A DNA stretch of 64,000 bases, from contig OX243822.1 in assembly GCA_945859605.1 (NCBI GenBank), positions 7,295,860-7,359,859 of the forward strand. The letters are read 5' to 3'. The translations under genes were made by a program, and so were the position numbers. Within the stretch, counting starts at the first letter, position 1; each line of letters begins with the position of its first letter. Under the pieces are notes generated by a model that was not told where the DNA came from, ran no database searches, and was given only the letters and a program-made list of their open reading frames with translations. Below are positions 1 to 64,000 of this stretch, one piece after another. This DNA is from Lumbricus rubellus (Eukaryota > Annelida > Clitellata > Crassiclitellata > Lumbricidae).

Positions 1-2
1 TC

Positions 3-1283
3 GAGGGATTCATTTCACTGACAGATCCACTGGCTGATATAGATTCGCGCCGACTTAGGTCCGTCAGTGTTTTCCAATGGAAGACATCAAACGAAAACAT
101 CAGCACTGTCAGCGAAAGAATCTTCGATTATGCAAAGAAATCGTTTGTTCGAGAGCTCGGCGAATTGATTAAAAACGCTGTGTGCAAAACAGAATATTTA
201 AATTCCGCGTTCATGACAAAACGCGCGTTTCTCAAAACGATTTTAACAGGTCTTGGCCAAAGAGCGAAGGATTTAACGCAAGAATACAAAGAAGTAGAAA
301 CAGAGAAGCAGACGATTTTTGAAGAGTTTATGTTATATGTTGACCCGGTTGATTCGAGAGCCAGAGAAGACTTCTTTTTGAAGGTAATATTAAACTTATT
401 AAAACAAATGTTGCTCAAAGAGAACGGGCCTGAAACTGATTTTCAGAAAATGGTTGAAAATAATGTCGGCAAGGTTGTGGAGAGGGCTAAAAATGCACTG
501 AAACAGGCAGAAGCAAAGTGCAACGAAAATGTAAAAGAATATATTCGGATTTTCAAAGACTGCATGAACATAACAAATGAAATTAATTTTCAAATAAACA
601 CTCTGAGTGGTTTTACAGAGGCAGCTATGCAACAGATTGATGGTTTATACGCTGACTTTCACAGCCAAGCTAATTCTTCTTTCGAGACACTTGTTTCCGA
701 AGACAATGAAGCTGCAGTCAGAGCAGTATTCGAGAAGATGATGGGATGTCGAGAGAAATGTCCTTTCTGTTCAGCGCCATGTTGTCAATCATTCCAGGGC
801 CACGCAAGAGCTCATCGTGCTAACCATTATCCAACTGGTGTGAGTGGTACAATTGATATTTGGGGTTTATTTTCAAATATACAACAAACTGTCGATGCCA
901 CTGGAAAAAGACGCAGATGGCGCAGAAAACTGTCCCTGGACACGTGTCAAACCTTGGTTGGCACTCGAGTTGATTTCAGAACCAAAGTCACCGTGGAAAA
1001 GTATGACAAATGGTATCACAGGCTGTTTAACAAGAATTATCACTCATTTAAGACCTACAGAGAATTGGCAGAGTATGAGAACTGGGATATTACATACAGT
1101 CAAGATTATAAGACTTCTTTGTATTGGAAATGGTTCATGGCTCAGTTTCATAAAGAACTAGCTGAACATTACAAAGCTTTGTGTCCACAAATACCGGAAT
1201 CCTGGAAAAAAGTTACTTGGGAAGAAGCAAAAGAGAGCTTGGTTGACCCTGACTTTCAGTCAGGTATTGAAGAACAGTTGTAG
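3..1283 (+). CDS. VLIG-type giant GTPase, copy A, C-terminal part (cut by window start)
   Basis: The frame is open from base 3 to the TAG at 1281-1283 (426 codons), so this is the 3' end of a much larger single-exon gene. It aligns with the C-terminal quarter of copies B and D: a helical stretch beginning SLTDPLADID, the conserved KRAFLKTIL block, a probable zinc-binding cluster (CREKCPFCSAPC, about bases 746-781), the CQTLVG block, and the terminal YWKWFMAQF / WEEAKESL motifs typical of vertebrate VLIG C-termini. The GTPase domain lies outside the window. One oddity is that the His-Gly-Asp-His segment after the cysteine cluster reads HARAH, so the acidic residue kept in B and D is lost. By family the product is a large cytosolic GTPase of innate immunity; that role is inferred from vertebrate relatives. 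The homologous frame continues upstream of any Met, so the apparent first Met is not a real start. Confidence 0.85.
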   Translation, partial: EGFISLTDPLADIDSRRLRSVSVFQWKTSNENISTVSERIFDYAKKSFVRELGELIKNAVCKTEYLNSAFMTKRAFLKTILTGLGQRAKDLTQEYKEVETEKQTIFEEFMLYVDPVDSRAREDFFLKVILNLLKQMLLKENGPETDFQKMVENNVGKVVERAKNALKQAEAKCNENVKEYIRIFKDCMNITNEINFQINTLSGFTEAAMQQIDGLYADFHSQANSSFETLVSEDNEAAVRAVFEKMMGCREKCPFCSAPCCQSFQGHARAHRANHYPTGVSGTIDIWGLFSNIQQTVDATGKRRRWRRKLSLDTCQTLVGTRVDFRTKVTVEKYDKWYHRLFNKNYHSFKTYRELAEYENWDITYSQDYKTSLYWKWFMAQFHKELAEHYKALCPQIPESWKKVTWEEAKESLVDPDFQSGIEEQL

Positions 1284-1703
1284 GCTAAGTGATAGTATCC
1301 AGATGCAAAGCGGCCGACTTATAATATTGCTCGGACTCTGCGGCTTTCAAATAGTTTGTGTAATAATTAATTCATGAAGATGCTTGGTATTAATGTTAAG
1401 AGAGGACGTTTTCAGTTCCAGAAGAGGATGACCAAATTATGAACACTTGGCTTATGACTTATGAGACAGTGGAATCATCATTATCGACTAATATTTTATT
1501 TCTATAGACCTATTATCTATGCAGTAGGCCTACTTCTGAGAAATGAGTGTTATAGGCTATACGAACTAAAAACAGGTCGACTAAAATAGTTTGGCCATTT
1601 GAAATATTTTGATGTTGACAGAATTATCCTTCATCTAGGCCTACGTGGTTTGCTTAACCTCTATAGCGTTCTTTGTAGAATAGCCAATAGCGGTAGAACA
1701 CAT

Positions 1704-1709
1704 AATAAA
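1704..1709 (+). terminator. Candidate polyadenylation signal of VLIG copy A
   Basis: This is the first AATAAA on the coding strand after the copy A stop, about 420 bp downstream, followed by TGTTTTGTAATTTTTGC, which is GT/T-rich as expected. The assignment is positional only. Confidence 0.3.
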
Positions 1710-2764
1710 TGTTTTGTAATTTTTGCATTATTTTATTTTTTACTGAAGTCCGGAGAGGGCGATAGATAAAGATAACATCGCTTGACTTGAATTGCAGAAA
1801 ATCAAGTTGGATGCGGGATCGACTTCTGATACAAAGGTTAACACAACACGGCCTTCCATTCATGATATCACTGAGATGCAGTGGGTAAAATGACTTGCGG
1901 CTCAGTTTCCTACATACATGTACAGTGTGTAGCCATGCCATAAAGATGCAAATGATGACAATAATTATTTATGTGCACGCATGATCAATAATATCTTCTT
2001 CCCATAGCGTGCTGGCCTGCTACGTGTATGATAGGCCGTGGTCTAGATGTATATCCACAGGCAGGACCCCATTCGAGTCGAGGGTATAGGCTAATGCGCG
2101 GTTAGGCCTATACAGCGTGTACTCATCTCAGATATAGGCCTAAGCTTATAATAATATTGTTATTTTGTCTCAATGTAGGCCTACTCAATCCTGCAAGCGA
2201 CCTAATACGAAAAAATGCTGAGTGTAGCCTACTCAACTCAAAAAGACTAGTATAAAGCTTTTTAAGACTATGTTATTCTATATCTTTTAGCCATCAGGAA
2301 ATTTAAGACGAAATATAACGTCGAGGACCCGATGTTCTATTCAATGTAGATTGTGTGGCTTCCCCTTGTCTTCCACAGACAATGATAGTATTGTGGTTGA
2401 GTATAAGCCTAACATTCATTGCGACTGCAATACAGGTGCATGTGTAGTCGACACAGAAGACTTAGTGTTGCCTTTTCTGATGGTGTGATAATAGGCCTAT
2501 TAGAAACATCAGTTACCAACGCACTGGTGTTCATATTTTCATTTGACATTTTATATCATAGAGCTGATGTTATTGATAATTGATACTGTGCTGTTGAATG
2601 ACTTTGCCGTGTTTTTTACACAGTTTTCAGATCTTATTATCTTCAATAGAAGAAACTTTCCATATTTTCTCTGAGCTTACAGATCATTTGAACGAATAAA
2701 ACCTACATAAATGTAGATCATGGATAGGCCACCATCGATTATCGATCTAAGATTGTATATTGGG

Positions 2765-2865
2765 GGCCCGGTAGAGTAATGGATAACACGCTGGCGTAGA
2801 GAGCGAGAGGTAGGCCCAGCGACTTCGAGGCTCGAGCTCCCGTTGGGCGGATATGATAGGCTGCT
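2765..2865 (+). repeat. tRNA-like SINE head, degraded
   Basis: The stretch GGTAGAGTAATGGATAACAC resembles a tRNA A box region, and about 60 bp later GAGGCTCGAGCTCCC resembles a B box. The spacing fits a tRNA-derived SINE or a tRNA pseudogene. The arms do not pair well enough for a functional tRNA and no target duplication was found. Confidence 0.4.
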
Positions 2866-3327
2866 ATTAGCACCATGTATTGCAGGCTGTCTGTTCATTT
2901 AGTATAGTTAAGTTTGGTTTAATTAAGATTACTGCATAACTTGTTCACGTAAAGCGGAGTGCGTTTGTAGGCGTTTAATAATTAATTCCAAAAAAAAATA
3001 TTGTATGTTGGAGAGCAATCGTCTACCGCCTTAGGCTATTATAGCCTATCGTAAACGTGATCTCCAAATTTCTAAAGCACCACTTAAAAGCTGAGCGCAG
3101 GGCAAAAGCGCTTAGCCTATATAATATAAATTTTATTTGTTTAACTGCGACAAATAAGCCTACTCCAAACTGGTTTCAACTTAGATTTCCTGTGGATTAT
3201 GAGCTTGTTTTCTAAACCACCGTCTTGTCGTGGTCATCATTATAGGCTAACGGCGCTATAAAAGTAATCTAATCAGGTCAGACAAGATTTAATACCCTTC
3301 CACTTAATTTTGTACAATTAAGTGAGC

Positions 3328-3556
3328 GGTGGTGGTGGTGGTGGGGGGTGTGGGTAATGGTGGATGTTGTGGTGGTGGTGGTGGTGGTGGTGGTGGTGGT
3401 GGTGGGGGTGATGGTGGTGGTGGTGGTGGTGGGGGTGGTGGTGGTGGTGGTGGTGGTGGGGGGTGATGGTGGTGGTGGTGGTGGTGGTGGTGGTGGGGGT
3501 GATGGTGGTGGTGGTGGTGGTAGTAGCAGCAGCAGTAGCAGCAGCAGCAGCAACAG
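3328..3556. repeat. (GGT)n microsatellite passing into (AGC)n
   Basis: About 190 bp of almost pure GGT/GGG repeats are followed by about 35 bp of AGC/AGT repeats. The repeats keep long frames open on both strands (poly-Val/Gly, poly-His/Thr), but these frames have no other coding character. Confidence 0.95.
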
Positions 3557-3782
3557 TAGTATTAACTCTCTTTCGCCATGAGAATATTTCAAATAGACAG
3601 AAAAACTTTATTCGACTTTTTTTCTCTCCAAAACAAAGTTGTGGTAGGCCTACATAATTATTATTAGCTAGAATTAACTGAAGAACTTTGGTTACAAATG
3701 TTATAACTTTCTCTAGCATTAGCTGAATAAATTAAAATCGCCATTGTTGCTGAATAAAACCAGGACCCTTCATAACTTACAT

Positions 3783-4183
3783 CAGTGGTTCTCAAACTTC
3801 TGCTGGCCGCGGACCGGCAATAATTTTTTTGGGAAGCTCGCGGACCGCTAAACTTTAATGGCAAGCACAAACAAAAGCGAACTGTATTATTTAAAAAAAA
3901 CTAATTATAGGGTTATTTTTAATTAGAGATTTTTTATTTAATAAAACTGTTTGTACAACCATTTGGCAAGTTAAAATAAGGCACTGGTAATGTATTTTTA
4001 AAGTTTGAGACAGAATTTTGAATAAATTTTGAAAAACAATTCGAATAATTTCACAATTTTAAATATATAAATTCATAATTAAAATTTATATTTCACTCTC
4101 AGACTTCTTCACGGACCGGTGATCAGGACTCCGCGGACCGGCGCCGGTCCGCGGGCGGCGGACCACCACTTTGAGAACCACTG
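3783..4183. mobile_element. hAT MITE (CAGTGGTTCTCAAACTT family)
   Basis: A 401-bp element has inverted ends CAGTGGTTCTCAAACTT and AAAGTTTGAGAACCACTG-like sequence. It is flanked by an exact 8-bp duplication ACTTACAT (3775-3782 and 4184-4191), diagnostic of hAT insertion. The sub-terminal regions are GC-rich inverted repeats (GCGGACCGGC). It lies about 100 bp beyond the 3' end of VLIG copy B and has no coding capacity. Confidence 0.92.
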
Positions 4184-4291
4184 ACTTACATAAAATGTTA
4201 CGAACGAAAGGGCCAGAAAAGCATCAAGACGATTGTTGGACGTAGGCCTATGCGGGGCAACGTGAGTTTTAAGTCTCTAAGTTTTATATGA

Positions 4292-7200
4292 CTAACATTT
4301 TTGTTCAACATTAAGTTGCAAATCCAAGTCAGGCTCGTCTAAGCTCTGTTGTGCTTCTTCCAAAGTTACTTTCTCCCAGGCATCTGGTATTTCTGGTAAG
4401 GAAGCGTTATAATGTTTAGCAAGTTTTTCAACAAACCGAGCCATGAACCATTTCCAAAATAACGAAGTTTTATGGTCTTGTCTATATGGAATGTCCCAGT
4501 TTTTATACTCCGCAATTTCTCTGTAGTTTTTGAATGAGTGGTAATCACAGTCAAACAATTTGTGATACCATTTGTTATATATTTGCACTGTGACTTTCGT
4601 TCTGATATCTGCATCAATTCCAACCATGGTTTGACAAGTAACCAGAGCCAGTCTTGTCCGATTTCCTTCTTCTTCAGTTGCATCGGGAGTTTCCATTGTA
4701 GGCCTACTTGTAAACCAACCTCTGCACTCGACTGCACCTCTCACCCCAATTGGATAATGATTAGCCCTATGATCTCCAGCGTGGTGCTGCAGTGATTGTG
4801 AGCAGGGCGCTGAACAGAAAGGACATTTCTCTCGGCATCCCATTATCTTATCCAACACTGCTCGAAGCGCAGCTCTGCTGTCTTCACATACAAGTGTTTC
4901 AAAGGAAGAATTGGCCTTGCTTAGAAAGTCAGCGTATGCAATGTCAATCTTTTGCAGAAGTGCATCTGTAAAACCACTCAGCGTGTACATTCTGAAGTCA
5001 ATCTCACTTGTTACGTTCATATAAGCTTTGAAAATTCGAATGTATTCCTTTGTACATCCTTTGCAATCTATATCTGCCTGTCTCAGTGCATTTTTCGCTT
5101 TCTGCACAACTTTGCCTAAGTTATGTTCAGCTATTTTCTGAAAACTAGTCTCAGACGCGTTCTCTTTTACCAGCATTTCTTTCAGTATCTGCAATATAAT
5201 ATCGATGAAGAAGCTTTCACTGTCGTTTGATTCCGCCATATTTACATATAACATAAACTCATCAAAAATTTTCTTTCTTTCTTTCTATGAATTATATTCT
5301 GAGTCTTTTGGCTGAGATCCGTTAGAATCGTTTTCAGAAAGGCGCGTTTAGACTTAAACGTATGATTTTTATTGTCTTCTTTCAACACTTCTGTTTTAAT
5401 TAAATCACCGAGATCTCTAACGAACGATCTTTCCGCGTAATCGAAGATTTGTTTACTGACAGCCTTGATGTTTGTTTCTACTGTCATATTAACGATATCG
5501 TGCAATTGATTGACGGACCTTTCATAACGCTCGTCGATATCGGCCAGTGGATCGGTCAGTGAAATGAATATCTTGCTGTTTTCTAAAGATCGATGGAAAG
5601 TATAACGACAGACAAATTCAATGAATCGTACGGTGTAATCGCGAGTAAAGCTATATCCGAGCGGTAGGTTTGAACACGTTATTTCATCTAGTTCAGTATC
5701 GATTGCATGCTCTATCGTAACGATTCCTAAAAGTTGACCAACTTCTCGCATAACGTGGTTCAAAAGAGAGGCATCGAAATCCAGGCCTCTTCTATGTTGA
5801 TATTCCGAATCCCAATGTTTAAGCGCATGCACAAAATTACTGTTGGCCTTGTAGACGTCTGTAGATTTTAACAGCATCGAATCTATCGCTCCTATATCTT
5901 CGTTTGGTACAATGTCATTTACGGTTACCTTCGGCATTTCAACATCAAAAGACTTGACTAATTCTAACCAAGCCACATCTGCCATATGCAGTTTGTCTTT
6001 TGGATCTATGGCTCTGTAACATACCCAAATTCGTTCTTTAATTTCATTTTCAACTATCTTGATTCTCTCATTCACTAGCAATTTGTTGTCAGCAATAAGA
6101 GTTTGCCATGACTCATCGAACTCATTCACCTGTGCTTCATTTAATTTGCCACTCTCAACCTCTTCAATGTACCTCTCTAAATCAGCAAGTCTGGTAGTTA
6201 AGTCTTTTACTCTTTGATCGTTTCCGATTTCAAGTTTCTTCATATGGACACCTATGTCTTTAGTCGTTTCATTGTTATTTCGACAAATTTCTGTATCTCT
6301 TACCTTAGACAGTGATGTTTCATACTTTGTCTTCGTAGCTGCGCAGATATCAGTGGCGTCGATAATATCCTGCAAAGTTGCTTTAATCTTTACAAAATTG
6401 TTTTCAACAGCAGCGCTCACGTCTGCATATATATTTTCCTTCTTTGACATCAGATCCTCGATGCTTTTGCAAGAAACAATTAATTTTTGAAATGTTATAT
6501 ATTCACGTTTGTTCATATTCTTGAAATTGTCCACTTCGTGAGAAATTTCATCATTTAGAACTGTGCCTGACATGATCTCCTGTGTGTTTCTAAAGCAGAG
6601 CACAAAGTCGATGTGAAGCAGAGCATTCCACAGATCAGACAAACGAAGATAAAAATTTGAGATAGGCAAGTTTGAAGATTTGTCTTTTATCATTTCTATA
6701 AGGTGTTGCCTTAATTCGTTTGCCTTCTTAGTGTAGTCTTGACTTATTCCAGCGTTTGGTGGTCTGCCATTCCATAAGTCCGGAAAGAACCAGGAATGTG
6801 AACCTGGATCATACTTGATCACTTGATCAAATTTTGTTATTTCAGTGAAACCTTCTTTACGACCAGCGGCCTCTATTGCTTCGTCTAGAAGTCTTAGCTG
6901 CTTTTCTTGGCCCAATCGATTCTTTTCTTCCGCATCAATTGCAGAAACATTCTGGTGCACAAACAAACACCTTGGCATCAACTCCAATTCCTCTTTGGTT
7001 TGCCTGACACGAATTAAACCGTAAGCCACGATCTGAAGGATGTCTTTTATTTCGGACCAGTTTTCTCCTTTCATGTTGATTATTGTAGCATCGGCCAATC
7101 CAATGGCAAAAGTAGCCAATTCATTGTCTCTGAAAGTTGAATTTCCAGTAAACTGCGATGCTCCAAGACCTTCTGTGTCCACGACCAAAATATATTCACA

Positions 7201-9288
7201 TTCTACTTGTAAACTTCCTTTATCAAGAGGAACTAAATGACAGTAGATTCCTTTTGTGCATCTGCCAGCGCTCGTTGGAAACTGAAGACCAAACATTGCA
7301 TTGAGTAAAGTTGATTTTCCAGAACTTTGTACGCCAATTATCGACAAAATAAATATCTTTGCACTCTTAGATAAAATGTTAATTTGATCTAAAACGGCTT
7401 TCAGCCAAGTTATTGGAACATTTGAAGAATCACCGTCCATTAATTCCAGCGGCAGACCCTTCAGAAGAAGTCTAGCTATGATTGAAGGAAAATGGCGAAT
7501 AACATCCAGTGGCAAAGGAGCGTTCTTCAACTCCTCTCTCATACGAATTTCTTCTGAAATCACGGCTTCATACATTTGTCCACACTCTCGTAGAAGGTGC
7601 TCCAGGCAAATTGTACTGTTTTCAATTTCAAACTCGGTTTGGCTTAGGTTAACTTTATACTCCCCTTCATTTGACAGCTGATGTAGATGGCTTTCTTGCA
7701 GCAGCTTCTTATACTGTTCTAGTAGGTTTGATGTGATAACTTTACTCCTGGCATCTAATTTTATCTTGCAAGAATTCAGGTAGTATAAAAGATTCTGATC
7801 TTGAAGAAGATGAATTTTTAGGAAGAACATTAGAATCATTTTATTTTGTTTAATAAGGCTGAGACATTGTATTTCTCTTTGTCGTCTTTTTTCTGTTTCC
7901 TTCTCTGCAATAAAATATTCGGCATGTTTTTTATCTAGTGACTTTCCGAGTTGTTCACGTGCCAGCTTTCCAAAGTTTTCCCAAGGTTCGCCTTGCAGCG
8001 GAAGTATTGTTGGTTTACAATCGGACGATTGTTCCAAAACTGAATCAACGAATTCGTCAGCACTCGCTTTTTCCAAATCGAATTTCGACTTATCTTCATC
8101 AAGTGAAAACCCGAAATTCTTTCCCTCTCGGCTGATGCTGGAATATGTGGGCATATCGTTATGATGTAGATGTTTCGAATTGAGAGCATTTGATATTTTA
8201 TTTCTCAAATCGTTTGTTAAATCATCGTCGCTCATTTGCTCGTCGTCACTCCAGTCGCAATACAGCGATGAAATTACACCATGCTCGTCCAACAATTCGA
8301 AATTTATTTTATCACTTTCATCAGGAGGTTCAGATGAAATACGGTAAACGATGATCTTTGTTTTTGACACGACAACATATTTAAGAACATCGTTGTTCAA
8401 CTCCTTGAATGATTTAAACGAATCGACCAAAAGGAAAGTCAGCGTTGATGACTGGCATAGAAATTGTGTCTGTGTTAGATAATCTCTTGCATCTCCACGA
8501 AGATTTAATGCAGTGAATAATCTACAGTTGAATTCTTCTTCAGATGCTACTGATGACTGAAACCAAGCAGCTTCTATAGATCCATTTGACACTGTTCTTT
8601 TTACTTTTCCGTGAGAACATCCTCTATGAAAAAATGTATTGAGAGAGTTGGGGTTGAGAAGGTCATTTAACAGCTTTGATTTGGATCTGTTCAAATTACC
8701 AGCACGAATAAACGACACAACTGGGTTTCTTACGTCAACTAATGTATCAGTCAAAGACTCTGAGCAATCTCGGATTCGGTTTTGTACTTCCGGGACAAGG
8801 CTTCTCATAGCAAAAAGCAACAACGTACATGTATATGAACTGTTTCTTACATTTCCGAACCAATTGCTTGGAAGCAATATCGGAATACTTAGCTTATTGA
8901 CAAACATCCTTTCTACCAGAAATTGTCTGAGAAAGTCGTCACAACAGTTAAATACCGTAACCAATAAATCCATTGGATGCAATTTTGGTCTCTTCGCCTT
9001 CGTTTCAGTCGGTCTATTGTTTCCTTTCTGTGATGGACTATCTCCATCGGAAGCGCATTGACCTCTGGTCTCTATTTCTGTGTTGTTGAGACGCTTATTA
9101 ATTTCTGTTGCAACCGAAACCACAACCTTTGAGTCAAACGTAAGTAATTTCCTAACAATTTCTAGTCCATATTGCTTAGAGCAACCATTCTGAGATTGTC
9201 CGCGCAACTTTATTGCTTCACTGAAAGAAAGTTTCTGAGGATAGTAGTCGCTCAACTTCAGCTCGCTCAGAAGGTCGATTGAAGTCAT
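4292..9288 (-). pseudogene. VLIG-type giant GTPase, copy B, single frameshift
   Basis: Near-complete copy in two overlapping frames: 9288-5242 (1348 codons) and 5254-4292 (320 codons). The first carries the VLIG N-terminal block (LKLSDYYPQKLSFSEAIKL), the P-loop GVQSSGKS (residues 652-659), a G2-like CTKG, G3 DTEGL (704-708), FVHQN at the VLIG-specific G4 position, and long helical segments. The second carries the Cys cluster CREKCPFCSAPC with its H-x-G-D-H segment and the terminal WKWFMARF motif. The frame is lost near 5265-5290 in an AAAG tract; copies A and D read straight through here. One extra or missing base would explain it, either a real mutation or an assembly slip in a short repeat. 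The second frame also carries a 6-bp in-frame TAGGCCTA insertion (4699-4706). I chose the start by alignment with copy D. No introns are evident. Confidence 0.88.
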
Positions 9289-16591: not shown

Positions 16592-16950
16592 TACTGAGAC
16601 GCTCATTAATTTATTTATGTTGTGACCGAGTCCACTGCCGTGGAATTTAACATAAGAAGTTTTCTCACAATTTCTATTCCATATTACATAGGGCAACCAC
16701 TTTGATTTTCTCCACGCAGTTTAATTTCTTCAATGAAAGAAAGTTTATGGGAGTAGTAGCCTACTCGGTCAACCTTAGCTCTTCCAGATGACCAATGAAA
16801 GCAAGTCTGTACAACAACAAAGTAATGATAGAATTTCAGAATTAAGGAGAAATAATGTTGTGTTAAGAAATAGATCATTGTACAAAGCTTATGTGCCTGT
16901 TAAATAGTAAAGGCGCAATAAAACTTAAGGTTTTCACAAAGATCGTAGCC
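16592..16950 (-). pseudogene. VLIG copy C, N-terminal relic
   Basis: The minus strand between about 16800 and 16592 aligns with the first ~70 codons of copies B and D: YYSHKLSFIEEIKLRGENQSGC, a degraded YYPQKLSFSEAIKLRG block, then a broken ...IVRKLL region. Homology continues upstream (16800-16950) with the 5' flank of copy B (shared ACAACAAAGT, TGTTAAGAAAT and GTAAAGG..CAATAAAACTT motifs), so the piece includes promoter-proximal sequence. Nothing matching the GTPase or C-terminal domains remains. A TAGCCTA insertion at 16757-16763 shifts the frame relative to B and D. Clearly non-functional. Confidence 0.75.
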
Positions 16951-17517: not shown

Positions 17518-17830
17518 TTATTCATTCATTCATTCATTCATTCATTCATTCATTCATTTCGAAAACTTATAGCCTATAGCGCCCATTAAAGAAGCCTACC
17601 GAGAGGCGCTCCCAGTCCAGTCACGGCTAGAAAGATAGGTCTTGAGCAACTGATAGAAAGCATGCAAATTATTCCGAGGCAATAAGCGCAGTGCAAGCAG
17701 GAGCCCATTCGATGTGGACTGGCCAACAGCAGAGAAGGTTCGACGCTGTCTGGTAGCAGAGCGGGTTCGAGGGACTAACAGCTCTAAATTGGCCGAGGAG
17801 CGTAGGCTATATATAGCCTAAAGCTCGACA
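17518..17830. repeat. (ATTC)n tail joined to a LINE/SINE 3'-end-like repeat
   Basis: A run of ATTC units (17518-17558) adjoins TATAGCGCCC and GAGGCGCTCCCAG motifs. These recur inverted at 24805-24870, suggesting a retroelement 3' end. Further in, a GGAGCCCATTC...GTGGACTGGCCAACAG stretch resembles sequence at 40550-40600. I cannot assign a family. Confidence 0.45.
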
Positions 17831-30604: not shown

Positions 30605-33600
30605 TCATTCTGTCAGGTTAAGCGTGCTGGAAAACGTGAACTCCAACTCTGGATCTTGCCACGAACGTTCTTCAACACTAAACGTCGTATCAAAGTAGGG
30701 CTCATCCAAACTCTGGTGTGCTTCTTCCCAGGTTATGTGTTGCCATGCTTTCGGTATCTTTGGAGGCAAGGCATCATAGCGCTCAGCAAGTTGTTCAACA
30801 AACTGAGCCATGAACCATTTCCCATATAACGATGCATTATAGTTTTGACTGCGTGGAATATCCCAGTTTTTATACTCGGCTAATTCTCTGTAGTTTTTGA
30901 ATGAGTGGCAATCCAAGTTAAACAACCTGTGATACCATTTGTTATATTTTTCAATGAGAGCCTTGTTTCTGAAATCAACTCGAGTGCCAACCAAGGTTTG
31001 ACAAGTACCCAGTGACAGCTTTCTCCGCCTTCTGTGTCTTATTTCAGATGCATCGGCAGTTTCTTGTGTATTTGCAAACAAACCCCAAATATCAATTGTA
31101 CCTATGATGCCCGTTGGGTAATGATTAGCACGATGATCTCCAGCATGCCCGTCAAGTGATTGAGAACAGGGCGCTGAACAGAAAGGACATTTCTCTCGAC
31201 ATCCCATTATCTTCTCAAACAGAGGGCGAATTGCAGCTTTGTTTTGTTTGCACACAAATGTTTCAAATGTGGAGTTAGCCTTGCTAAGAAATTCAGCGTA
31301 CAAGTTGTCAATTTCTTTTATCACCCCCTCTGTGAAACCGTTTAAAATATTTATTCGGAAGTAGATTCCACTGGCTATGTTCATGCACTTCTTGAAAATT
31401 TGAATATATTCACTTTCACTCTCATTGTAGTTTGTTTCTGCCTGTCTCAGAGCATTCTTAGCTTCCGTCACAAACTTTCCAACACTGTTTCTAACCATTT
31501 TCTGAAAAAGAGTTTCCGATTCGCTTCCGTTCGTCAGCCTGTCTTTCAGTAACTTTATTATTGCATCGAGGAAAAGGTTTACGCTGGCTTCTGATTCAGC
31601 AAGCTCAAAATAAAGCATATACTCTTCTAAACATGTCTTCTTTGTTTCGATATCTAGAATTAAATTATAAGTCTTTTGACCAATATCCTTTAGAATCGCT
31701 CTAAGAAAGGCGCGTTTGGACCGAAAAGTAGGATTACTATCGTCTTCCTTTATCAGTTCGCCAAGATCTTTAACAAAAGATGTTTCCGCATAATCGAAGA
31801 TTTGTTTGCTGACAACCTTGATGTTTTCTTCTGCTGTCACATTGACGATATAATGCAATTGACTGATGGACCTTTCGTGACGCTCTTCGATATCTACCAG
31901 TGGATCAGTCAGTGAAATGGATCTCTTGCTGTTTTCGAGTGATCGCTTGTAAGTATAATGACATACAAATTCAATGAATCTAGTAATGTAATCATGAGTA
32001 AAGCTATATCCTGGTGGCAGGACTGAGCACATTTCATCAGTTTCAGTACTAACGTCATGGCCTTTCTTTAGGATTCCAAGCAGCTGACGAACTTCGGACA
32101 GAATCCCATCCAAATTGGACGCATTGAATTCAGGGTCGCTCTGACTTTGAAATTTCAACTCCCACTTCTTACGTGCATCTTGAAGACGGCTCTTTGCATT
32201 GTAAACATGTGATTTGGAGTAAACAAAATCTATTACCCAAGATGGTAATAGATTTGTTTTTTCGGTTTGATCAATGTCATTTTCAGTTACCTCAGGCATT
32301 GCAAAAGCTAAATCTGAATTAAACAACTCATCTATGTTAAAGTGAATTTTGCCTTCCTCACTCAAAATTTTCATTGATCGACGAATTGTTTCTTTAATTG
32401 TATTGTCTGCAAGCTGCGTTTTTTCATCAACTAAATCCTTGTTTTCCTGAATAAGATGCTGCCATTGTTCTTCAAAGTCTTTTACTACTCTCTCATTCAA
32501 TTTGCCTATCTCCACTTCTTGAATATGCTTCTCCAGAGCAGTCAGTTTCGCATTTAAGTCTTTAACGCTGTCATCGTTTTCAAGTGTCTTCACATGGACA
32601 TTTATATCTTTTGTCGTTTCGTCGATGATGCGTTCAAGTTCTCTAGATTTGATAATATCAAGCGAATTTGAATACTTTTGCTTTAAAGCTGAGCAAATAT
32701 CAGCGGCATCAATAACACCTTGCACAGTGCCATTCAGTTTGGTAAAATTCTTTTTAACAGCATCGGTCGCTTCTATCAAAATTCTTGCTTTTTCTGCTCT
32801 GACTTCTATAGCACATTTCATAAAACAATTTGATGTACCAATCTTTGTCTGTTCGAGTTTGTTTAGACTCTTGAAGTTGTCCACTTCGTGAGAAATTATG
32901 TCATTCAAAACCATCCCTGACATTATTTCCTGCGTGTTCCTATAACAGCGCACAAAGTCGTTGTGAAGCATCGCATTCCACAGATCAGACATACGAAGAA
33001 AGAAACTCGAAATTGTCAATCTTGAAAGATTTGTTCTCATCAACTGCACCAGATATTGCCTCAACTCCTTTGTTTTTGCAATGTAATCTTGGCTTATTCT
33101 CGCCTTTGGCGGTCTGCCATTCCATAAATCCGGAAAATACCACGAATTTAACACAGGATCATACTTGATCACTTGATCAAATTTAGTTATTTCAGGGAAA
33201 CCTTCAGCACGACCAGCGGCCTCTATTGCTTCGTCTAACAGCAGAAACTGTTTTTCTTGCCCCAGCCGATTCCTGTTTTCTGCATCGACAGCCGGAACAT
33301 TCTGATGCACAAACATACATATTGGCATCAATTCCAGTTCCGCCTTGGTTTTTCTGACACGAATTAAACCATACGCAGCAATCTGCAAAATGTCTTTCAT
33401 TTCTGCCCAGTTTTCGCCTTTCATATTGATTATTGCAGCATCGGCCAATCCAATGGCAAAAGTAGCCAATTCATTGTCTCTGAAAGTCGAGTTTCCAGCA
33501 AACTCTGAAGCTGCAAGGCCTTCTGTGTCCACAACTAAAACGTAATCATAGTCTACATGTAGACTTTCCTTGTCGACAGGAACGAGGTGACAGTAGATTC

Positions 33601-36472: not shown

Positions 36473-37309
36473 GGTAGCACGACATTTAATCCCGCGACAC
36501 TTAATACCGCGACAGTTAATACCGGACACTTAATCCCGGCGACATTTAATCCCGCGTCAGTTAATCCCGCGACAGTTAATCCCGACGAAATTTAATCCCG
36601 GCGACATTTAATCCCGCGACATTTGATACCGCGACACTTAATACCTGTACACACATGAGTACGAATATTTGTATGACTATTGTTGTCCACATAGCTAATT
36701 AGGTAGGCAAATTAGGTAGGCCTACATCTCTGTTCAGGTTTTCTGTAGTGCATCTTTACATAAAACGATCATTATAAAGGATTTTAAACAGGATTTCCGA
36801 AGTTCAGTCTACTATAGGGCAATGATATGGTTGCGAATTTCGGCTGCAGTAGCAAAGGCAAACAAACTGTGATAGGCCCTACATGGAAATTACGAATACA
36901 TTAAACATCGCGACAATGCCAACGGAGCTTTTTTATGAAAAAAACATGCAGTAAATACTGCTGTAAATATTGCTTTTATCGAATTTTACTGGTTTTATAA
37001 TATTTAACTGCAAAGACATAACTTTTTAACAATAGTGAATAGGCCTATTACTGTGAATATTGCTTTTTGAATTTAACTGTTTTAAAATGTTATTTTACTT
37101 TACTGTTATTAAGTGTCGCGGGATTAAATGTCGCCGGGATTAACTGTCGCGGGATTAATTGGTCGAGGGATTAAGTGTCGCCGGGATTTAACGTCGCCGG
37201 GATTAACTGTCGCGGGATTAAATGGTCGCGGTATTAAGTGTCGCGGGATTAACTGTCCGGTACTAACTGTCACGGTATTAAGTGTCGCGGGATTAAGTGT
37301 CATGGAACC
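36473..37309. mobile_element. TU-like foldback element 1 in the split LINE
   Basis: The arms (about 36473-36650 and 37110-37309) are inverted arrays of GACA(T/G/C)TTAATCCCGC-type units. The ends are GGTAGCACGACATTTAAT and AAGTGTCATGGAACC. A 9-bp duplication CAAAAAGAC flanks it (36464-36472 and 37310-37318). The middle (36650-37110) is AT-rich, non-coding, and is the inverse of the middle of element 2. Confidence 0.92.
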
Positions 37310-37912: not shown

Positions 37913-39171
37913 GGTTCCATGACACTTAATTCCGCGACACTTAATACCGCGACAGTTAGTACCAGACAGTTAATCCTGCGACACTTAATCCCGCGACCAT
38001 TTAATCCCGCGACAGTTAATCCCGGCGACATTTAATCCCGGCGACACTTAATCCCGCGAACAATTAATTCCGCGACAGTTTATCCCGGCGACATTTAATC
38101 CCGCGACACCTAATACCGGGAAAGAAATAACATTTTAAAACAGTTAATTTCCATAAAAGCAATAGTCACAGCAATAGGCCTACTCAATAATTGTTCAAAA
38201 GAGCTAAGCCTTTGCAGTTAAATATTAAAAAACCAGCAAAATTTGACAAAAGCAATATTCACAGCAAAATTCACTGTTAAAAAAGAGTTCCATTGGCACT
38301 TTCGCGATGTTTAAAGTATTCGTAATTTCCATGTATCACAGTTTGTTTGGCTTTGCTACTGCAGCCTAAATTCGCCTCCATGTCACTGCCCTATCGTAGA
38401 CTGAATTTCGCAATTCTGTTTAATATCCTTTGTAATGATTTTTTATGTACAGAAGTACAACAGAAAACCTAAACAGAGAGGGAGGCCTAACTAATTGGCT
38501 ATGTGGACAACAATAGGCGTACAAATATTCGTACTCGCGTGTGTACAGGTATTAAGTGTCGCGATATCAAATGTCGCGGAATTAAGTGTCCCCGGGATTA
38601 AATGTCGCCGGGATTAACTGTCGCGGGATTAACTGACGCGGGATTAAATGTCGCCGGTGTAAAGGTTTCAAATTACCCCCTCCTAAACATTACCCCCCGG
38701 TAACTTGAAACCGGTTTCAGATTACCCCCCGGAAACTAGATTTGCATCAACCATCGCATTTCTTGCACTAAAAAAATTAGAAAAATCATCCCGCTTCTTG
38801 TTTTGGTTTGAAGCTTTTCATCTGTCATCCTACTTCGTGGTTTGTTATCAATATTTTAATCGGGAAAAAATAATAGCCTCGAAGACATTTCTTCATGTAA
38901 CTTCCGCGGCGATTTAGTATTTTAGTAACAGATGAAAATATTGATAACAAACCACGAAGTGGGATGACGGATGAAAATCTTCGGACCAAAACAAGAAGCG
39001 GGTAGATTTTTCTGACATTTTCAGTGCAATAAATGAGATGATTGATGCAAATTACAGTTTTTAGGGGGGTAATGTTTAGGAGGGGGTAATCTGAAACCTT
39101 TACACCGGGACTAAGTGTCCGGTATTAACTGTCGCGGTATTAAGTGTCGCGGGATTAAATGTCGTGCTACC
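37913..39171. mobile_element. TU-like foldback element 2 in the split LINE, with its own nested insertion
   Basis: Same family as 36473-37309 but in inverse orientation: ends GGTTCCATGACACTTAAT and GTCGTGCTACC. It is flanked by an 8-bp duplication GATTTTTA (37905-37912 and 39172-39179). Left array 37913-38115, middle 38115-38545, right array 38545-39171, the latter interrupted by another foldback element (38658-39104). Confidence 0.92.
38658..39104. mobile_element. Nested foldback MITE with TGTAAAGGTTTCA ends
   Basis: A 447-bp palindromic element. About 42 bp of near-perfect terminal inverted repeat starting TGTAAAGGTTTCA and running through ACCCCCTCCTAAACATTACC is followed by further inverted sequence (CAAACCACGAAGT block), so most of it can fold. 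It interrupts the right array of foldback element 2. The flanking CCGG (38654-38657 and 39105-39108) may be a 4-bp duplication; equally the ends could be GGT...ACC with no duplication. Confidence 0.8.
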
Positions 39172-39862
39172 GATTTTTACACTCAGGCAAATAATAGAAA
39201 AGTCGTTAATGTACGAAAGACCAGTACTTTTCAACTTCATCGACTTCAGAACGGCTTTTGATAGTGTACACAGGAAATCACTATGGAGGATAATGAAAAG
39301 ATATGGTATACCATCCAAAATAATGGACATCATTTAGGCCTACAGGTTCTATGATGGCAGTCGGTGAGCGGTAAGATGCGAAAGCGAAGTGGGAGAATGA
39401 TTTCAGATTGTGACGGGAATACGACAGGGATGTGTGCTATCACCTTTGAATTTTGCCCTAGTCGTGGACTGGATAATGACCCAAGTGACGAATGATGCTG
39501 ACTTTGAATTACGGTGGGTGAATGGTGGTAGGCTAGGAGACCTCGACTTCGCAGATGACATCGCCCTACTATATAACACCAGTCCTGGGAGGGCATGAAA
39601 GAGTTAACAATCAGAACACAAGAAAAGGCGGCAATGATACATGTAGGTCTTGCTATCAACCCTGGTCAAACAGAGATCATGAAGGTTGGAAATTGGAGCG
39701 TGGACGATAGGATTGTTATTGACGGGGAGAGGTGGAAGAGGTGGATGCCTTCTGCTACCTGGGAAGCCTAATGACGGCGGATAGCAGCTGCGAGGGAAAT
39801 TAACGCGAATAGGAAAGGCAAACGCTGCCAGTGAGCGGGTAGGACAAATGAGGATGGGGGAA

Positions 39863-43081: not shown

Positions 43082-44286
43082 CACCGTGATTCAAAAAAAG
43101 TAAGCCAAATTGTTTTGCATATATCTCTAATACCTGATGACATATAAAGGTAAAATTTTCCAAATATTTAGAGAAGTGGACCAAGAATATGATTCCAAAA
43201 TTTCATGAGATAAAGTTGAACGGATAAAAAGATATGAATCGCTCAACTTCATATGCCGAAATTTCAGTTTACAAGCATGCAATTTTCCACTGGATTCAAT
43301 AAAAAAATTAAGCCAAACTGTTTTTCGTACATCTTTAATGTCTGATGATTAATCATGCTAAAAATTTTCCAATATTTAGCGAATTGAACACAAAATAGGA
43401 TTCCAAAATATCATGTAATAAATTTGACCGAATAGAAAGATATGGATATTAGGCTACAACTGCATCTCCCGAAATATCAGTTTTCAGCAAGTCGGTTATG
43501 GTGTTCTTTGCGGTTTTGACGCTTGGTCGTTCCCATTTTAGTCTTCATTGATTCTGGAGTAAAAATTAATGAAACCTATTATCGCGACGTTCTGCTGTCA
43601 CAACATCTTCTACCTGTAATCAGAAATCTAGCCCCAGAAGACAGCTTTGTTTTCCAACAGGACAGTGCTTCAGCCCACAGAGCCAAGGAAATCATCGGAA
43701 TTCTGACAAGAGAGACGCTAGACTTCATTTCTTCCACATTAATATAATAATTATTATGGCCTCCGAACAGCCCAGATTTGAATCCTGTCGACTATAAAGT
43801 GTGGAGCGTGATGCAATACCGAGTCTATCAGACAACAATCCATGATATAAACGATCTGACGCAATGCTTGTTGGAAGTGTGGGATGGCCTGAACCAGAGG
43901 ATAATCGACGATGCGTTGCCAAATGCATGGCGCCAGCGCTTCCAGGCTGGCGTGCAAGCAGGAGTAGGACATTTTGAGCATCTTAATTAATGAAATAATC
44001 AAACTATACTGTTGGGGTCATGTTGTTAGTTCAATTCTCTACATATCTGGAAAATTTTAGAATGATTAATCATCAGGCATTGGAGATAATAAGGAAACAT
44101 TTTATTGAATCTGACAGAAAATTGCTTGTAAACTGAAATTTCGGCAACTTTATCTCATGAAATTTTGGAATCATATTACTGGTCCACTTCTCTAAATATT
44201 TGGAAAATTTTGAGCTTGTTATGTCATCAGTTATTAGAGATATAGGCTACGCAAAACAATTTGGCTTACTTTTTTGAACCACGGTG
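43082..44286 (+). mobile_element. Tc1/mariner superfamily element, defective
   Basis: The inverted ends CACCGTGATTCAAAAAAAGT and (complement) CACCGTGGTTCAAAAAAGT are flanked by the expected TA duplication (43080-43081 and 44287-44288). The TIR-proximal sequence is duplicated internally at about 43293-43470, making the left end about twice as long as the right. The right TIR contains TAGGCTA (44243-44249) where the left has TA. Confidence 0.9.
43520..43990 (+). pseudogene. Tc1/mariner transposase, C-terminal half, broken
   Basis: Encodes FQQDSASAHRAKEI with the second catalytic Asp, then, after three stops caused by a ~14-bp AT-rich insertion near 43740-43755, WPPNSPDLNPVDYKVW with the third acidic residue as Asp (mariner-like rather than Tc1-like Glu), and GHFEHLN at the end. 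The N-terminal DNA-binding domain and first catalytic Asp are absent. Inactive. Confidence 0.85.
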
Positions 44287-54647: not shown

Positions 54648-54760
54648 TTTAGGCCTACAAATTTTTGCGGACAGTTCGCATAGGCCTACGTGTTTCGAAG
54701 ACTACCAGGACTGTTACAGTAGCCTACTGGCAAAACAAGAGGTTAGTACACCCTACAGTA

Positions 54761-57814: not shown

Positions 57815-57822
57815 GGGTTTGG

Positions 57823-59920
57823 CATAGGCGCAACCACGTCCTAAAAGTTGGGGGTGACCAATGGAAATTCTTAGTAGGAGTAATAATAGCGAGCGCGAAA
57901 CGCGTGGAGCCGCGATTGCCGAAGGCAGGAAGCCCCTGACGACTATGGGGTATGGGCTAGCGTCGTAAGCTCCCCTATCGGGGTCTGGGGCGGAGCCCAG
58001 CAACATACGCAATTTTGAGCATTTGATGCTAAATCGAGTGCATTTTGGGTTCTAGTTTATCTGAAATTTTGCAACGATGATATCGAAAGTATTCGGAATT
58101 AATGAATGAATGAAATAGAAGTACCTAAACCACCTCAATCTGTGAAAGTTTAAATCTAAATCAGTCAATCAATCACTTAATGAGCCATAAAAAATTGACA
58201 TTAATTTCGACATTGCTTTGTAAATAAAGAAAATTCACAGCTTCTATGGATGCAAGTTACAGAATGGACAGAAGTCATGCAACAAATACTCAATAATTTT
58301 AACAGAGCGTCTAAAGACTATAAGATCTTTGATTTTAATGTACACATAAGTTAAGAAACAATGAAACCAAAGAATGAGAATCATGAGTGCTCATTTCCAT
58401 CTAACAGGAATAAGGGACAGAAGTCCCGCTTATTTTTAGAGAAACTTATCTATAAACGGTTAAATGGTAAAAAAATTATTGTCTTACAACAAATATTCCT
58501 AATATTCATTTATTCAATTGCACAATGCCCATATAAATCGGAGTGCAAACAAAGATTTAGAAACATTATTATGTGTCCATTTGCATCTCCTGACAGTGTA
58601 TAAGTCAAAAGCGAAGCCTTGTTGTTGACTTGGGGGGGGGGTGAACGAGCGGCCGAAGGACGCCCGGCGAGGCACGAAGCGCCGAGCAGACGAATTTTTG
58701 AATTTCCACACTGCAATGGTAGCATTTTAGGCTGTCATTTTACAAAAATGTTCATCATTTCAGTGTTGACTTCAGTGGTTGAAGACTTTAAAATGGCGTC
58801 TCCTCCAATTGTCATTTTTTTCTCTCCAAATTTGCATGATGTAAAATTTGGTGACCTTTCTAAGCTGTCATCTGAAATGTTTTTTTCATAATTTCATTGC
58901 TGAAAGCCATGCTTTAAGACTTGCCCTAGTCATTGTTTAATTTTTTAAATTCTAAAAATGTAATGATATAGCATTTTAGGCTGTCTTTTACTCAATCATT
59001 TCAGTTTTGATGATTGTGATTCTGTGACTTCAGAAGCGTCTCCCACATTGCTTAAATATTTTCAGATTTCTTAAGTCATCATCTCAAACTATTTTTTATA
59101 ATTTAATTGAAAAAATTGCGTGATTTAAGACTACAATAAATGTATCCTCCCTTTGTTTAATTTTTTAATTAAATTTTTTATACTGCTATGGTAGCATGTT
59201 AAGCTGCCATTTTAACTAAATTGATCATTACGTAGAAACAATGGATAACACTGCAGACGTTTACGATGATATTTAATAAATACTTCTGAAATATTCGAGA
59301 TGGATTTAAGCACCTCCTTCCCCCGTCACAAACGTTGGAGGGCAAGGCCGTAGCCAGGATTTGATTTCGGGGGTGTTTCTTCGGCGGAGAATTTCTGAGG
59401 ACTTTATTTCTGAAGACACCTTTTTAGTCGTCAAAATGTCTGAAGATACATTTGTTTAGTCGTAAAAATTTCTGAAGACACCTTATTTTAGTCGTCAAAA
59501 TTTAGAAAAGACACCTTTTTAGGTGTAAAACATTCTAAAGACACCTTTTTTAGTTGTCAAAATTTATAAAGACATCTTATCCTTATGAAAGAAAGTCAAG
59601 ACTGAAGAGTCCAAATTCAGTATCCGTGATTCACACTTAGCAACACACTCACGTGCAATATGTGGGACGCCAACAGCCCAACACTGTCGGGATAAGATGC
59701 CAGATAAAAAACCTTCTTGACTCAGCCTTAATGCTGAGAAAACATGTTTTTAATGTGCCAATCTGTATTCGAACGGCTATTAGCAGCAGTTAGTGGCAAA
59801 AGTTGGGAGGGACCGTCCCAAGCCTCGTCGAAAGTTGGGGGACCATTCCAATAATGATCCCAAACCTCTCAAAGTTGGGGGGACGCGTCCCGTGGGTCCC
59901 ATAGGGTGGTTGCGCCTATG
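57823..59920. mobile_element. 8-bp-TSD element with CATAGGCGCAACCAC ends
   Basis: The left end CATAGGCGCAACCAC and right end GTGGTTGCGCCTATG are exact inverted repeats of about 15 bp, flanked by an exact 8-bp duplication GGGTTTGG (57815-57822 and 59921-59928). 2.1 kb, hAT-like by duplication length. The interior contains a tandem array (58705-59230) and a partial copy of the CAAGGCCG MITE (from about 59346). No transposase. Confidence 0.88.
58705..59230. repeat. Tandem repeat, unit about 230-250 bp, 2+ copies
   Basis: GGTAGCATTTTAGGCTGTCATTTTA at 58717 recurs at about 58970 and, more diverged, at about 59190. The following blocks TGACTTCAG..GCGTCTCC and TTTAAGACT..TTGTTTAATTTTTTAA recur in the same order. 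Confidence 0.75.
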
Positions 59921-59939
59921 GGGTTTGGTGGTTTGAACA

Positions 59940-61953: not shown

Positions 61954-61959
61954 GCACGT

Positions 61960-62870
61960 ATGGATGGATCCGATTTGACCAGGCTATGTGACAACAGAGG
62001 CCGTTACCATGGACAGAAATTTGCTCCGCATATTACAGCACTTGTAGGTGTGCATATATGTAGGAATGAATGTACATGTATGTAAGAGCTGGGGTACCCA
62101 GCGTCGGCCGGTAAATTTTTGCTTTGCCTGCTCCCCGCTAATCCCCTACTCTCATCCCACCCATCCATACTCCCCATCACAACTAAACTCCCTTTACCAC
62201 ACTCCCCAACCCCAGTACCATTTCCCATCTCCCTTCACCCATCACACCAACCCATCACCTTCCCAAGCAATTCCCACCTAAACCTTTTCTTTCTCACCGC
62301 ACCAACCAATCCCGACCCTACAATCCATCTCCGACTGACCCCGCCACTAATCCTCAGGCCCACCTTGCCTCCATCACTCTGGGGTACACGGCATAGCCCA
62401 GTAAATGTCGATTTTGGCGCCACACCTGTCTGCCCTTCGAACTTCACTGCACCCAACAACCCAACCACCCAACCACACTCAGATCCCAACGAGTGCATAT
62501 TCCTCTGGAGTAATCGGTGCTACCCATGAAATTTGGTTGGCCATCAATTTTTTACTTCCCCGTCTCCCCCCCCAAAAATACCGTGCCACCACTTTGCCCC
62601 GGCGGGGCGATGTGTGGGCTGGTTGGGGGCTGTGAGGCACTGGTAGCGCTCTGTCCATCAGGTTTCAGATGATTAGCTGCGCAACTGTGGCGAAGATGCG
62701 GAAATTGTAAAATTTGGATTATTTCCCTCACTCCGCCCCCCCTCATTGGGATGAGGGGTTAGCCACCCCTCTGCTGAGTTTTCATGGTGACCATCTGCCT
62801 AGTTGTAAGGTTTCGTGCCAATAGATGGAAAACTTCCTAAAGGTGGGCTAACTTCTGGATAAATATACAC
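61960..62870. other. Intergenic, C-rich stretch
   Basis: C- and CCA-rich sequence (62130-62500) and short ORFs without recognisable motifs. Two related GGGGTACNC..G(G/C)C..GTAAAT blocks near 62090 and 62380 suggest an old duplication. No gene supported. Confidence 0.45.
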
Positions 62871-62873
62871 GTA

Positions 62874-63055
62874 CTAGCGTACCCGGTCACGCGTTGCTGT
62901 GCCTGAAAAGAGCATCCAACCACCCGTCCTTACCTTCATTCGACCTCCCCTCCCACTCCCCTCCCCCTCCCCTCCCACTCCCGTCCCCCTCCCCTCCTCC
63001 CCTTCCCCTTTCTCTCCCCTCCCCGTCCCCTCCCCTCTTCTCCCCTCCCTACCCT
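62874..63055 (-). mobile_element. Helentron-like element, copy 3, 3' end only
   Basis: Starts (plus strand) CTAGCGTACCCGGTCACGCG, the complement of the copy 1 3' end, followed by its CCCCT-type tract (62945-63055). It then meets LINE sequence; the rest is missing. It lies where the LINE RT frame stops. Confidence 0.8.
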
Positions 63056-64000
63056 TCCGTTTTGTCTATTTCAGGTCTGAGACGGTTCAACAGTACTCTG
63101 CAAAACACCTGCCTCGGTACTGAAGCAGGGTTATTCCTCGCCAGTTATTACAGTTGCTCAATGATCCTTTTTTGGGCAGCTCGATAATGACTCCTTGTTT
63201 CCAGTCGTGAGGCACATCTTCCTCTTGCCACAATAGATTAAACAGGTAAGCGAGCTCCTCTGCCACCACATCCCCTCCTTGTTTGAGCATCTCGGCCGAT
63301 TTTTCATCCAATCCAGCTGCTTTGTTGTTTTTCAGAGCCTGTGTTGCTATTCTAACCTCCTGTATGTTGATTTCCTCCATTGATATGAAGTCTTCGCTCT
63401 GCGGTTCCCCTACTTCAAAGTTGTATGTAGTTTCAGGAGCCGGTTGGTTTAGCACCTCATTGAAGTGTTCAATCCAACGCTCGGCTTGCTCTTCCTCTGT
63501 CAACAGGTTTTCGCCTGATTTGCTTTTGATGGGTAGTACACTGTGCTTCCACTCCACGCCTTGCTGAGCTCTCGTGCAATCCTGTATAGGGTTCTGCTGT
63601 CACCCCTTTCTGCAGCTTCTTGCGCCTCTCTTCCTTTCTCTTCGTGCCAGTGCTTTTTGTCTTCTCTGCAGCTTTTCTTCACCCGACGATCCATGCACCT
63701 GTATTCCTCGTCCTTTGTTTTCCACATTGGTTTATCCAGTTCCTTATCTCTCTCGATTTTCATTTCCTTCCGTTTGTCTATCAATTCCCATGTCGTGTCG
63801 CTGATCCATCTTTCCTTTGCTCCTCCTCTTCTTCTTCCCATTACATCCTCCGCACTCTTTGTGATGGCCTGAGTGAACATTTCCCATTGTTCTTCGCTGT
63901 ATGGGCTGTGTTGTAGTGCCTCAAATCTGTTCCTGACCTCCAGTTGGAACCTTTGTGCTGTGTCCGCATCACTAAGTCTCTCAGCTGCAAATGGCCTCAT
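63056..64000 (-). pseudogene. LINE, EN-RT linker and first RT blocks, two frameshifts, runs off the window
   Basis: From the right edge inward the minus strand reads RFQLEVRNRFEALQ (linker), GDSRTLYRIARELSKAW, then after a frameshift near 63540 KSGENLLTEEEQAERWIEHF, ALKNNKAAGLDEKSAEMLK, WKQGVIIELPKKG, NCNNWRGITLL. After a second frameshift near 63130 it continues VFCRVLLNRLRPEID. The Helentron-like copy 3 and its purine tract then interrupt it. APE-type LINE, broken; its upstream endonuclease would be beyond 64000. Confidence 0.82.

Follow-up and report, generated by a model that had tools for sequence, protein, structure and literature searches.

Our results suggest that a 64,000-nucleotide stretch of the Lumbricus rubellus genome (assembly GCA_945859605.1, contig OX243822.1, positions 7,295,860 to 7,359,859 of the forward strand; hereafter the window) carries about a hundred scars of past DNA transposition. 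These are short G/C cores enclosed by two copies of TA, and they form a ladder of 3, 4 and 5 bases, represented by TAGGCTA/TAGCCTA, TAGGCCTA and TAGGGCCTA/TAGGCCCTA, respectively. The best explanation, and in our judgement probably the right one, is that a cut-and-paste transposon with TA as its target and GGC...GCC as its ends left the ladder motifs as footprints when it excised.

Enrichment of the ladder motifs

The original prediction, made by eye, had reported about 45 copies of TAGGCCTA and many of TAGGCTA/TAGCCTA. The exact counts agree with it. Against expectations from trinucleotide composition, TAGGCCTA occurs 44 times where 0.6 are expected (1525, 1636, 2103, 2135, 2176, 2492, 3645, 4243, 4699, 9914, 9947, 11379, 12617, 13014, 14336, 14616, 15626, 18813, 19298, 19429, 24691, 27185, 27549, 35648, 36717, 37040, 38175, 39335, 40823, 41980, 42509, 45526, 45887, 50844, 51132, 51498, 52892, 53282, 53771, 54650, 54681, 55060, 56878 and 56924). 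The 3-base cores number 54 in the whole window, compared to 5 expected: 29 TAGGCTA (1281, 1553, 2087, 3032, 3243, 9807, 10402, 10987, 11221, 11731, 12610, 12680, 13770, 14226, 14525, 17803, 18403, 20482, 30165, 30512, 39529, 43450, 44243, 45952, 48070, 50740, 53619, 54855 and 60160) and 25 TAGCCTA (2225, 3042, 3113, 10310, 12330, 12650, 16757, 16946, 17570, 17814, 17946, 18286, 18491, 19361, 25017, 28976, 42719, 45574, 47381, 49430, 49670, 50780, 54720, 55467 and 56714). The 5-base cores number seven (0.26 expected), four of them TAGGGCCTA (10772, 15603, 29756 and 54148) and three TAGGCCCTA (17471, 27542 and 36873). Altogether 105 ladder motifs are present, some 1.6 per kb, of which about 6 would be due to chance.

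No excess was observed in the window for TAGCTA (7, 10.7 expected), TAGGTA/TACCTA (15, 19.8-21.2 expected) or TAGTA/TACTA (85, 101.8 expected), and TAGGGCCCTA was absent from the window count. When the dinucleotide around the core was varied (XY-GGCC-XY), TA gave the 44 sites and each of the 15 others gave 0 to 2. Control cores with C before G came nowhere near the ladder excess, the highest being TACGGTA (5, 2.0 expected). Moreover, one-mismatch neighbours of TAGGCCTA were found 34 times (16.3 expected); this gives a ratio of about 0.4 to the intact copies, which by a hand calculation is what a constant input would produce over some 12% of divergence per site. Note that at 12610-12624 and 27542-27556 two ladder motifs adjoin or overlap, as if the TA of one scar had been used again.

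We also compared the 16 palindromes of the form TA-xyy'x'-TA after masking simple repeats. TAGGCCTA was enriched 72-fold, and two further palindromes were clearly in excess: TACATGTA, with 12 sites (1.2 expected), and TAAGCTTA, with 8 (1.1 expected), the latter dispersed (2141, 12277, 35928, 42917, 46047, 49262, 53592 and 60323). TATATATA (11, 1.8 expected), TAATATTA (7, 2.3 expected) and TAAATTTA (8, 4.1 expected) were raised too, perhaps owing to AT-rich repeats, and the remaining ten palindromes had 0 to 2 sites each.

Filled and empty sites in repeated sequences

If the motifs are insertions, paralogous copies should differ by the exact length of the core plus one TA. Paralogous pairs were taken from a self-alignment of the window, using alignments of at least 65% identity and at least 80 columns and excluding simple repeats and self-overlapping alignments. 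Sixteen of the 105 ladder sites could be examined in this way; the other 89 have no usable paralogue in the window.

Seven of the 16 sites clearly face an empty copy. In copy B of a family of VLIG genes, TAGGCCTA (4699..4706, plus strand, as are all filled sites given here) is empty in copy D (31067..31070, plus strand), in the outside protein P0121 and in a third copy, A, which has TA at 881 on the minus strand. TAGCCTA in VLIG relic C (16757..16763) has its empty counterparts at 9245 in B and at 35571 in D, and another TAGCCTA (17570..17576) faces TA at 24856 on the minus strand, an exact 5-bp difference. Within a foldback arm, TAGGCCCTA (36873..36881) has TA in the other arm (38335; exact 7 bp), and TAGGCCTA in a palindrome arm (54681..54688) has TA at 53747 in its partner (exact 6 bp). 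TAGGCTA in the right terminal inverted repeat (TIR) of a mariner element (44243..44249) faces TA in the left TIR near 43121. Finally, TAGGCCTA in a long interspersed nuclear element (LINE; 39335..39342) has a partner LINE (26818, minus strand) that is exactly 6 bp shorter and lacks the TA. Ladder sites are present in copies of VLIG, LINE, mariner and foldback sequences, as the original prediction had stated for genes, LINEs and foldbacks. Six of the seven pairs that it had listed are among these clear cases; 17570 and the VLIG copy at 881 are additions to its list. Its seventh pair, TAGGCTA in an internal duplication of the mariner (43450..43456), proved ambiguous, since the partner near 43240 is not TA and the gap is split 4+1.

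Two other sites are ambiguous as well: the partner of TAGGCCTA at 36717..36724 lacks 13 bp overlapping the motif, and that of TAGCCTA at 54720..54726 lacks 11 bp that include it. Four sites (13770, 39529, 53771 and 54148) were uninformative. The last two, TAGGCCTA at 37040..37047 and at 38175..38182 (plus strand), are the two arms of one foldback and have the motif in common; either this event predates the duplication of the arms or it was copied by conversion. The same arms share this site and differ at 36873, which also shows events spread in time. The foldback itself (36466-39178) is large, with nested arms made of 15-bp tandem repeats, and inverted arrays with other repeat units are found at 13155-14077 and 25451-27171.

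A motif-blind rule, which asks for a single gap of exactly the predicted length, was passed by 6 of the 16 sites; as background, 1.5% of random 8-bp windows in the same alignments touch a gap of 5-7 bp. Note that 4699 fails this rule because the aligner split its 6-bp difference into 2+4.

The site at 4699 lies within a minus-strand open reading frame (ORF) of copy B, where it adds Arg-Pro in frame: B reads FTS-RP-TMET, D reads FAN--TQET and P0121 reads FRN--IQET. With D, A and P0121 all empty, the majority of the copies makes this change a gain in B. The distances among B, D and P0121 are much the same (55-61% identity), and the polarity is therefore that of a majority and not of a rooted tree; P0122 and P0124 gave no useful alignment at 4699. 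The same gene holds one of the three TACATGTA copies that fall within alignments, two of which are insertion pairs. At 8826..8833 (plus strand), TACATGTA is a 6-bp in-frame gain of the CA/TG class in the frame of copy B, its two residues being absent from D (35175) and P0121; P0122 and P0124, which are distant, carry extra residues at this position, but unrelated ones. This VLIG gene would thus have received two in-frame gains of two residues, one each of the GG and CA classes. The second pair is in a LINE (39638..39645, plus strand), whose partner near 26529 on the minus strand is 6 bp shorter and without TA, in a weak alignment. The third copy, at 33554, faces TACTTGTA, a substitution.

The VLIG/URGCP-type GTPase genes and relics are clustered (8-1255, 4301-9402, 16581-16808 and 30605-35638); B consists of two ORFs and D of a single open frame of 1677 codons. 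P0121 is 58% identical to D among the best 120 of 156 matches, and the named VLIG matches among those listed are at most 36% identical to it. The VLIG gene and relic sequence, 11.4 kb, contains 1 site where its TA content predicts 14.7, and a copia element contains none where 6.4 are predicted. Such deficits are what one would expect if selection acts against these events in genes and if they build up only with time. The copia-type retrotransposon (20764-24564; ORF 21114-24275, minus strand) has a pair of long terminal repeats 99.5% identical over 199 bp, and the nearest relatives of its protein among the best 120 of 357 matches, P0001 and P0002, are 69-70% identical.

Next, we analysed the target from the base that follows TA, reading away from the motif, at either end of each of the 105 sites. 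The count was 72 for C (38.7 expected) and 20 for G (39.0 expected; p=8e-10), and outward positions 2 to 8 showed no preference (p of 0.11 or more). By four-base target, usage was 4.2-fold the expectation for GTAC, 2.7-fold for ATAC and 2.3-fold for GTAT; GTAC had 15 sites on 146 TAs in that context and CTAG had none on 112. This fits an enzyme that reads a target of the form R-TA-Y (R, purine; Y, pyrimidine).

The excision model and its competitors

How could one element produce three core lengths? The element would insert at R-TA-Y, best at GTAC, duplicate the TA and carry the ends 5'-GGC...GCC-3'. On excision, each flank would retain a 3-nt 3' overhang, TA-GGC, and the two overhangs would pair during end joining in one of three registers. 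Flush pairing over 3 nt (G:C, G:G, C:G) would give TAGGCTA or TAGCCTA, depending on how the central G:G mismatch is resolved; a shift by one would leave a 2-nt overlap with perfect GC pairing and yield TAGGCCTA; a shift by two would leave a 1-nt overlap with a C:C mismatch and yield TAGGCCCTA or TAGGGCCTA. Neither TAGCTA nor TAGGTA would be a product of joining GGC overhangs. At the eight sites of the form TAGGNCCTA, the central N is G in four, C in three and T in one. What the window shows directly is the enrichment, the duplicated TA, the exact lengths of the insertions, the preferred target and, by majority of copies, a derived state at one coding site; the transposon as their cause, its GGC ends, the 3-nt overhang and the registers of joining are deduced from these.

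The original prediction had already proposed a TA-duplicating insertion and an excision footprint, and this part is supported by the empty-site pairs, by P0121, by the target preference and by the TACATGTA class. Its rule that 1-3 terminal bases remain per side was too loose, because cores of fewer than 3 G/C bases, TAGCTA included, show no excess; a fixed GGC overhang with a varying overlap describes the data better. In support of this, when three models were fitted to six count classes (those of TAGGTA and TAGGCCCCTA lay outside the fit), the GGC overlap model with three rates had a log-likelihood of -12.7, and it appears, post hoc, to predict the ladder counts and the missing rungs better than the two alternatives.

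One of these alternatives, which we regard as unlikely, is a transposon with a 2-nt GG overhang, as in Tc1/Tc3-like elements, whose full retention would give TAGGCCTA and whose partial overlap would give TAGGCTA/TAGCCTA. Both main classes are covered by it, and TACATGTA would be the counterpart for a CA overhang, whose partial-overlap product TACAGTA/TACTGTA is indeed raised (16, 7.9 expected). However, it yields none of the seven 5-base cores, it allows TAGGTA/TACCTA, which fall below expectation, and its log-likelihood with two rates is -29.1; the corresponding product for an AG overhang, TAAGTTA/TAACTTA, was found 7 times where 9.9 are expected.

Slightly less credible still is that no excision took place: a TA-specific break, made for example by a domesticated transposase, would receive 1-3 G at each end from a terminal transferase-like activity, and fill-in would produce TA-Gn-Cm-TA. 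This would account for the variable n and m and for why no source element was found in the window, and independent G-tailing fits the counts moderately (log-likelihood -17.4). With the same number of parameters, three, it is nevertheless 4.6 log units behind the overlap model, it predicts 7.5 extra TAGCTA when the total seen is below that expected from composition alone, and it leaves TACATGTA and TAAGCTTA unexplained.

We give little credence to one-base slippage, by which the insertion would always give TAGGCCTA and slippage in GG or CC would later create the 3- and 5-base cores. The three classes are indeed one G or C apart, but the 3-base class outnumbers the 4-base class, and TAGCTA, the double-slippage product, is not in excess. 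Least probable of all is a functional reading, in which selection preserves TAGGCCTA as a binding site and the copies of each pair differ through chance gains and losses. The strong enrichment of one palindrome speaks for it, but the exact length differences at 6 of the 16 blind-tested sites, the ladder of core lengths, the presence of motifs in coding sequence as well as in LINE, mariner and foldback copies, and the 5 site pairs within 20 bp (about 3.4 expected, by hand) argue against it.

Several observations weigh against the excision of a GGC-ended element. One of the seven clear empty sites, the LINE partner of 39335, has AAG/AG in place of TA. The overlap model was devised after the counts had been seen, and its lead over G-tailing is only those 4.6 log units. 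Its unpaired product TAGGCGCCTA is absent from the window, and products that it does not predict are present: TAGGCCCCTA (1, 0.03 expected), TAGGGCTA/TAGCCCTA (3, 1.2 expected) and TAGGTCCTA (1). No TA-flanked, GG-ended element was found in the 64 kb. Moreover, known excisions are described as less uniform. Of the 94 excisions in the rice data of PMC4423477, 8 were perfect and the others carried deletions, filler or both; mariner insertions there exceeded excisions by 2.6 to 2.8 to 1. Non-canonical footprints are reported for Hsmar2 (PMC3770610), and ZB and Passer are given as leaving 0-3 and 0-4 bp (PMC7913693, PMC9976928), whereas cores of 0-2 bp in the window are indistinguishable from background.

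The putative source element and related systems

The search for full GG...CC elements, suggested by the original prediction, was run within the window, and no TA-GG...CC-TA element was found. Among TAGG...CCTA pairs up to 10 kb apart, 37 of 7891 passed a loose TIR test, compared to 32 of 7869 direct-repeat controls, and the strong pairs were foldback arms or a hAT element. Among TAGG/TAGC...CCTA/GCTA pairs up to 6 kb apart, 23 passed; these were foldback arms, pairs of ladder motifs, the hAT element and chance pairs. A wider set of TA...TA pairs up to 4 kb apart gave 332 passes, 70 of which were listed, so this set alone is no proof of absence. The pair at 57825/59918, the only good one with a TAGGC start and with TAGGCGCAACCAC at both ends, was rejected as a source, since its ends are CATAGGCG and it is flanked by an 8-bp duplication of GGGTTTGG, as in hAT-like elements. 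The miniature inverted-repeat transposable element near 12046, which had been named as a weak candidate, starts TA-GGG and not TA-GGC, and found no support. The hAT-like element (57823-59920) has the ends CATAGGCGCAACCAC, the duplicated GGGTTTGG at 57815-57822 and 59921-59928, subterminal AAAGTTGGGGG repeats and, as the longest ORFs listed, frames of 95-100 amino acids.

For some 100 scars to lie in 64 kb where no copy turned up, the element would have had to hop frequently over a long time at low copy number. Because cut-and-paste transposition leaves one scar per jump and requires no further copies, a long-lived element present in few copies would be enough. Tentatively, the source could be an undescribed family of GGC-ended, TA-target elements, very long-lived and either rare in copies or never resident for long, whose scars far outnumber its copies. 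If so, the genome would hold a genome-wide record of past jumps, and the family would steadily supply genes with in-frame insertions of two residues.

Termini of Tc1/mariner elements usually start with CA. The window cores imply GG(C), although a minor CA class, TACATGTA, exists, and for this reason, and because no element was found in the window, we do not file the family under Tc1/mariner. Membership would also call for an element with matching TIRs and a DD(E/D) transposase, and none with GG ends was found in the window. In other respects the resemblance is close. Tc1/mariner footprints are given as 2-4 bp between two TA copies (PMC7913693), and 98 of the 105 window cores have 3 or 4 bases, seven have 5, and 2-base cores are not in excess; the duplicated TA is seen in the empty-site pairs, save the one LINE partner, and in the TA-only enrichment. 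Sleeping Beauty produces 3-nt 3' overhangs (PMC7827188) and the footprint TAC(A/T)GTA (PMC3432063), which one review prints as TAG(T/A)CTA for Sleeping Beauty/Tc1-mariner (PMC2874221). As far as these accounts go, its CAG end shares with the window a TA target, a TA duplication and a 3-base footprint with an either/or centre, the core in the window being GGC/GCC. However, the window has an abundant 4-base product, which a CAG overhang cannot pair to form, and about 1.6 sites per kb with no source element found in it.

Palindromic scars of the TACATGTA type between TA copies are left by Tc1 of Caenorhabditis elegans; in the window this class is a minor one, with 12 sites. For Stowaway elements of the Triticeae, historical footprints are described that retain 1-4 bases of the TIR between the two TAs (PMC1925063), a likeness to the window. 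In that account five different footprints occur at one intron site and elements persist in some taxa, whereas the window has 105 sites under one rule and no element was found. ISL2EU elements of the PHIS superfamily, present in animals, are described as duplicating AT in an A|AT|T target, with TIRs that usually start with GG (PMC4482050). They resemble the window in their two-base, AT-rich duplication; the GG start corresponds in the window to a putative end residue only, and the duplication there is TA in R-TA-Y. Since the ISL2EU duplication is AT, the family is not filed there either. PIF/Harbinger elements duplicate 3 bp, TWA, according to the same source; in the window no third base is duplicated, and the base outside TA is R/Y-biased.

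Footprints of this type are already known, and what surprises is their density, their uniformity and the missing source. The R-TA-Y target, the overlap-register ladder and the enrichment of TACATGTA and TAAGCTTA are new in this analysis. Among the titles and abstracts listed in searches of open-licence literature, we found no description of the motif as a footprint or insertion. TAGGCCTA may also be frequent in sequence from marine fish and sea urchins. If this reading of the scars is right, past transposition can be read where no transposon remains, with one footprint per jump, each recording a target preference and a joining register; the lifetime activity of an element, the end-joining choices of its host and the rate of two-residue gains in genes would become measurable. 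An overrepresented octamer that might otherwise be mistaken for a regulatory motif would also be accounted for.

Finally, viral contigs (IMG/VR) were scanned for two TAGGCCTA within 30 bp, which gave at least 120 loci, and the motif was counted in 120 of them. One contig, IMGVR_UViG_3300005669_000010 (1-7152, 7.2 kb, 56% GC, four ORFs of at least 150 amino acids), was picked by the motif itself and has 8 TAGGCCTA where 0.21 are expected. It also has 5 TAGGCTA/TAGCCTA (0.97 expected) and no TAGCTA (1.13 expected), at a density that resembles that of the window. Unlike in the window, the base outside TA is often G. This contig may be a second instance of the ladder.

Two minor features of the window complete the description. 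A run of 200 N at 55597-55796 is an assembly gap adjoining a long CCTCC array, and a tRNA-Thr-like match (anticodon ggt; ARAGORN), possibly a short interspersed nuclear element, lies at 17837-17923.

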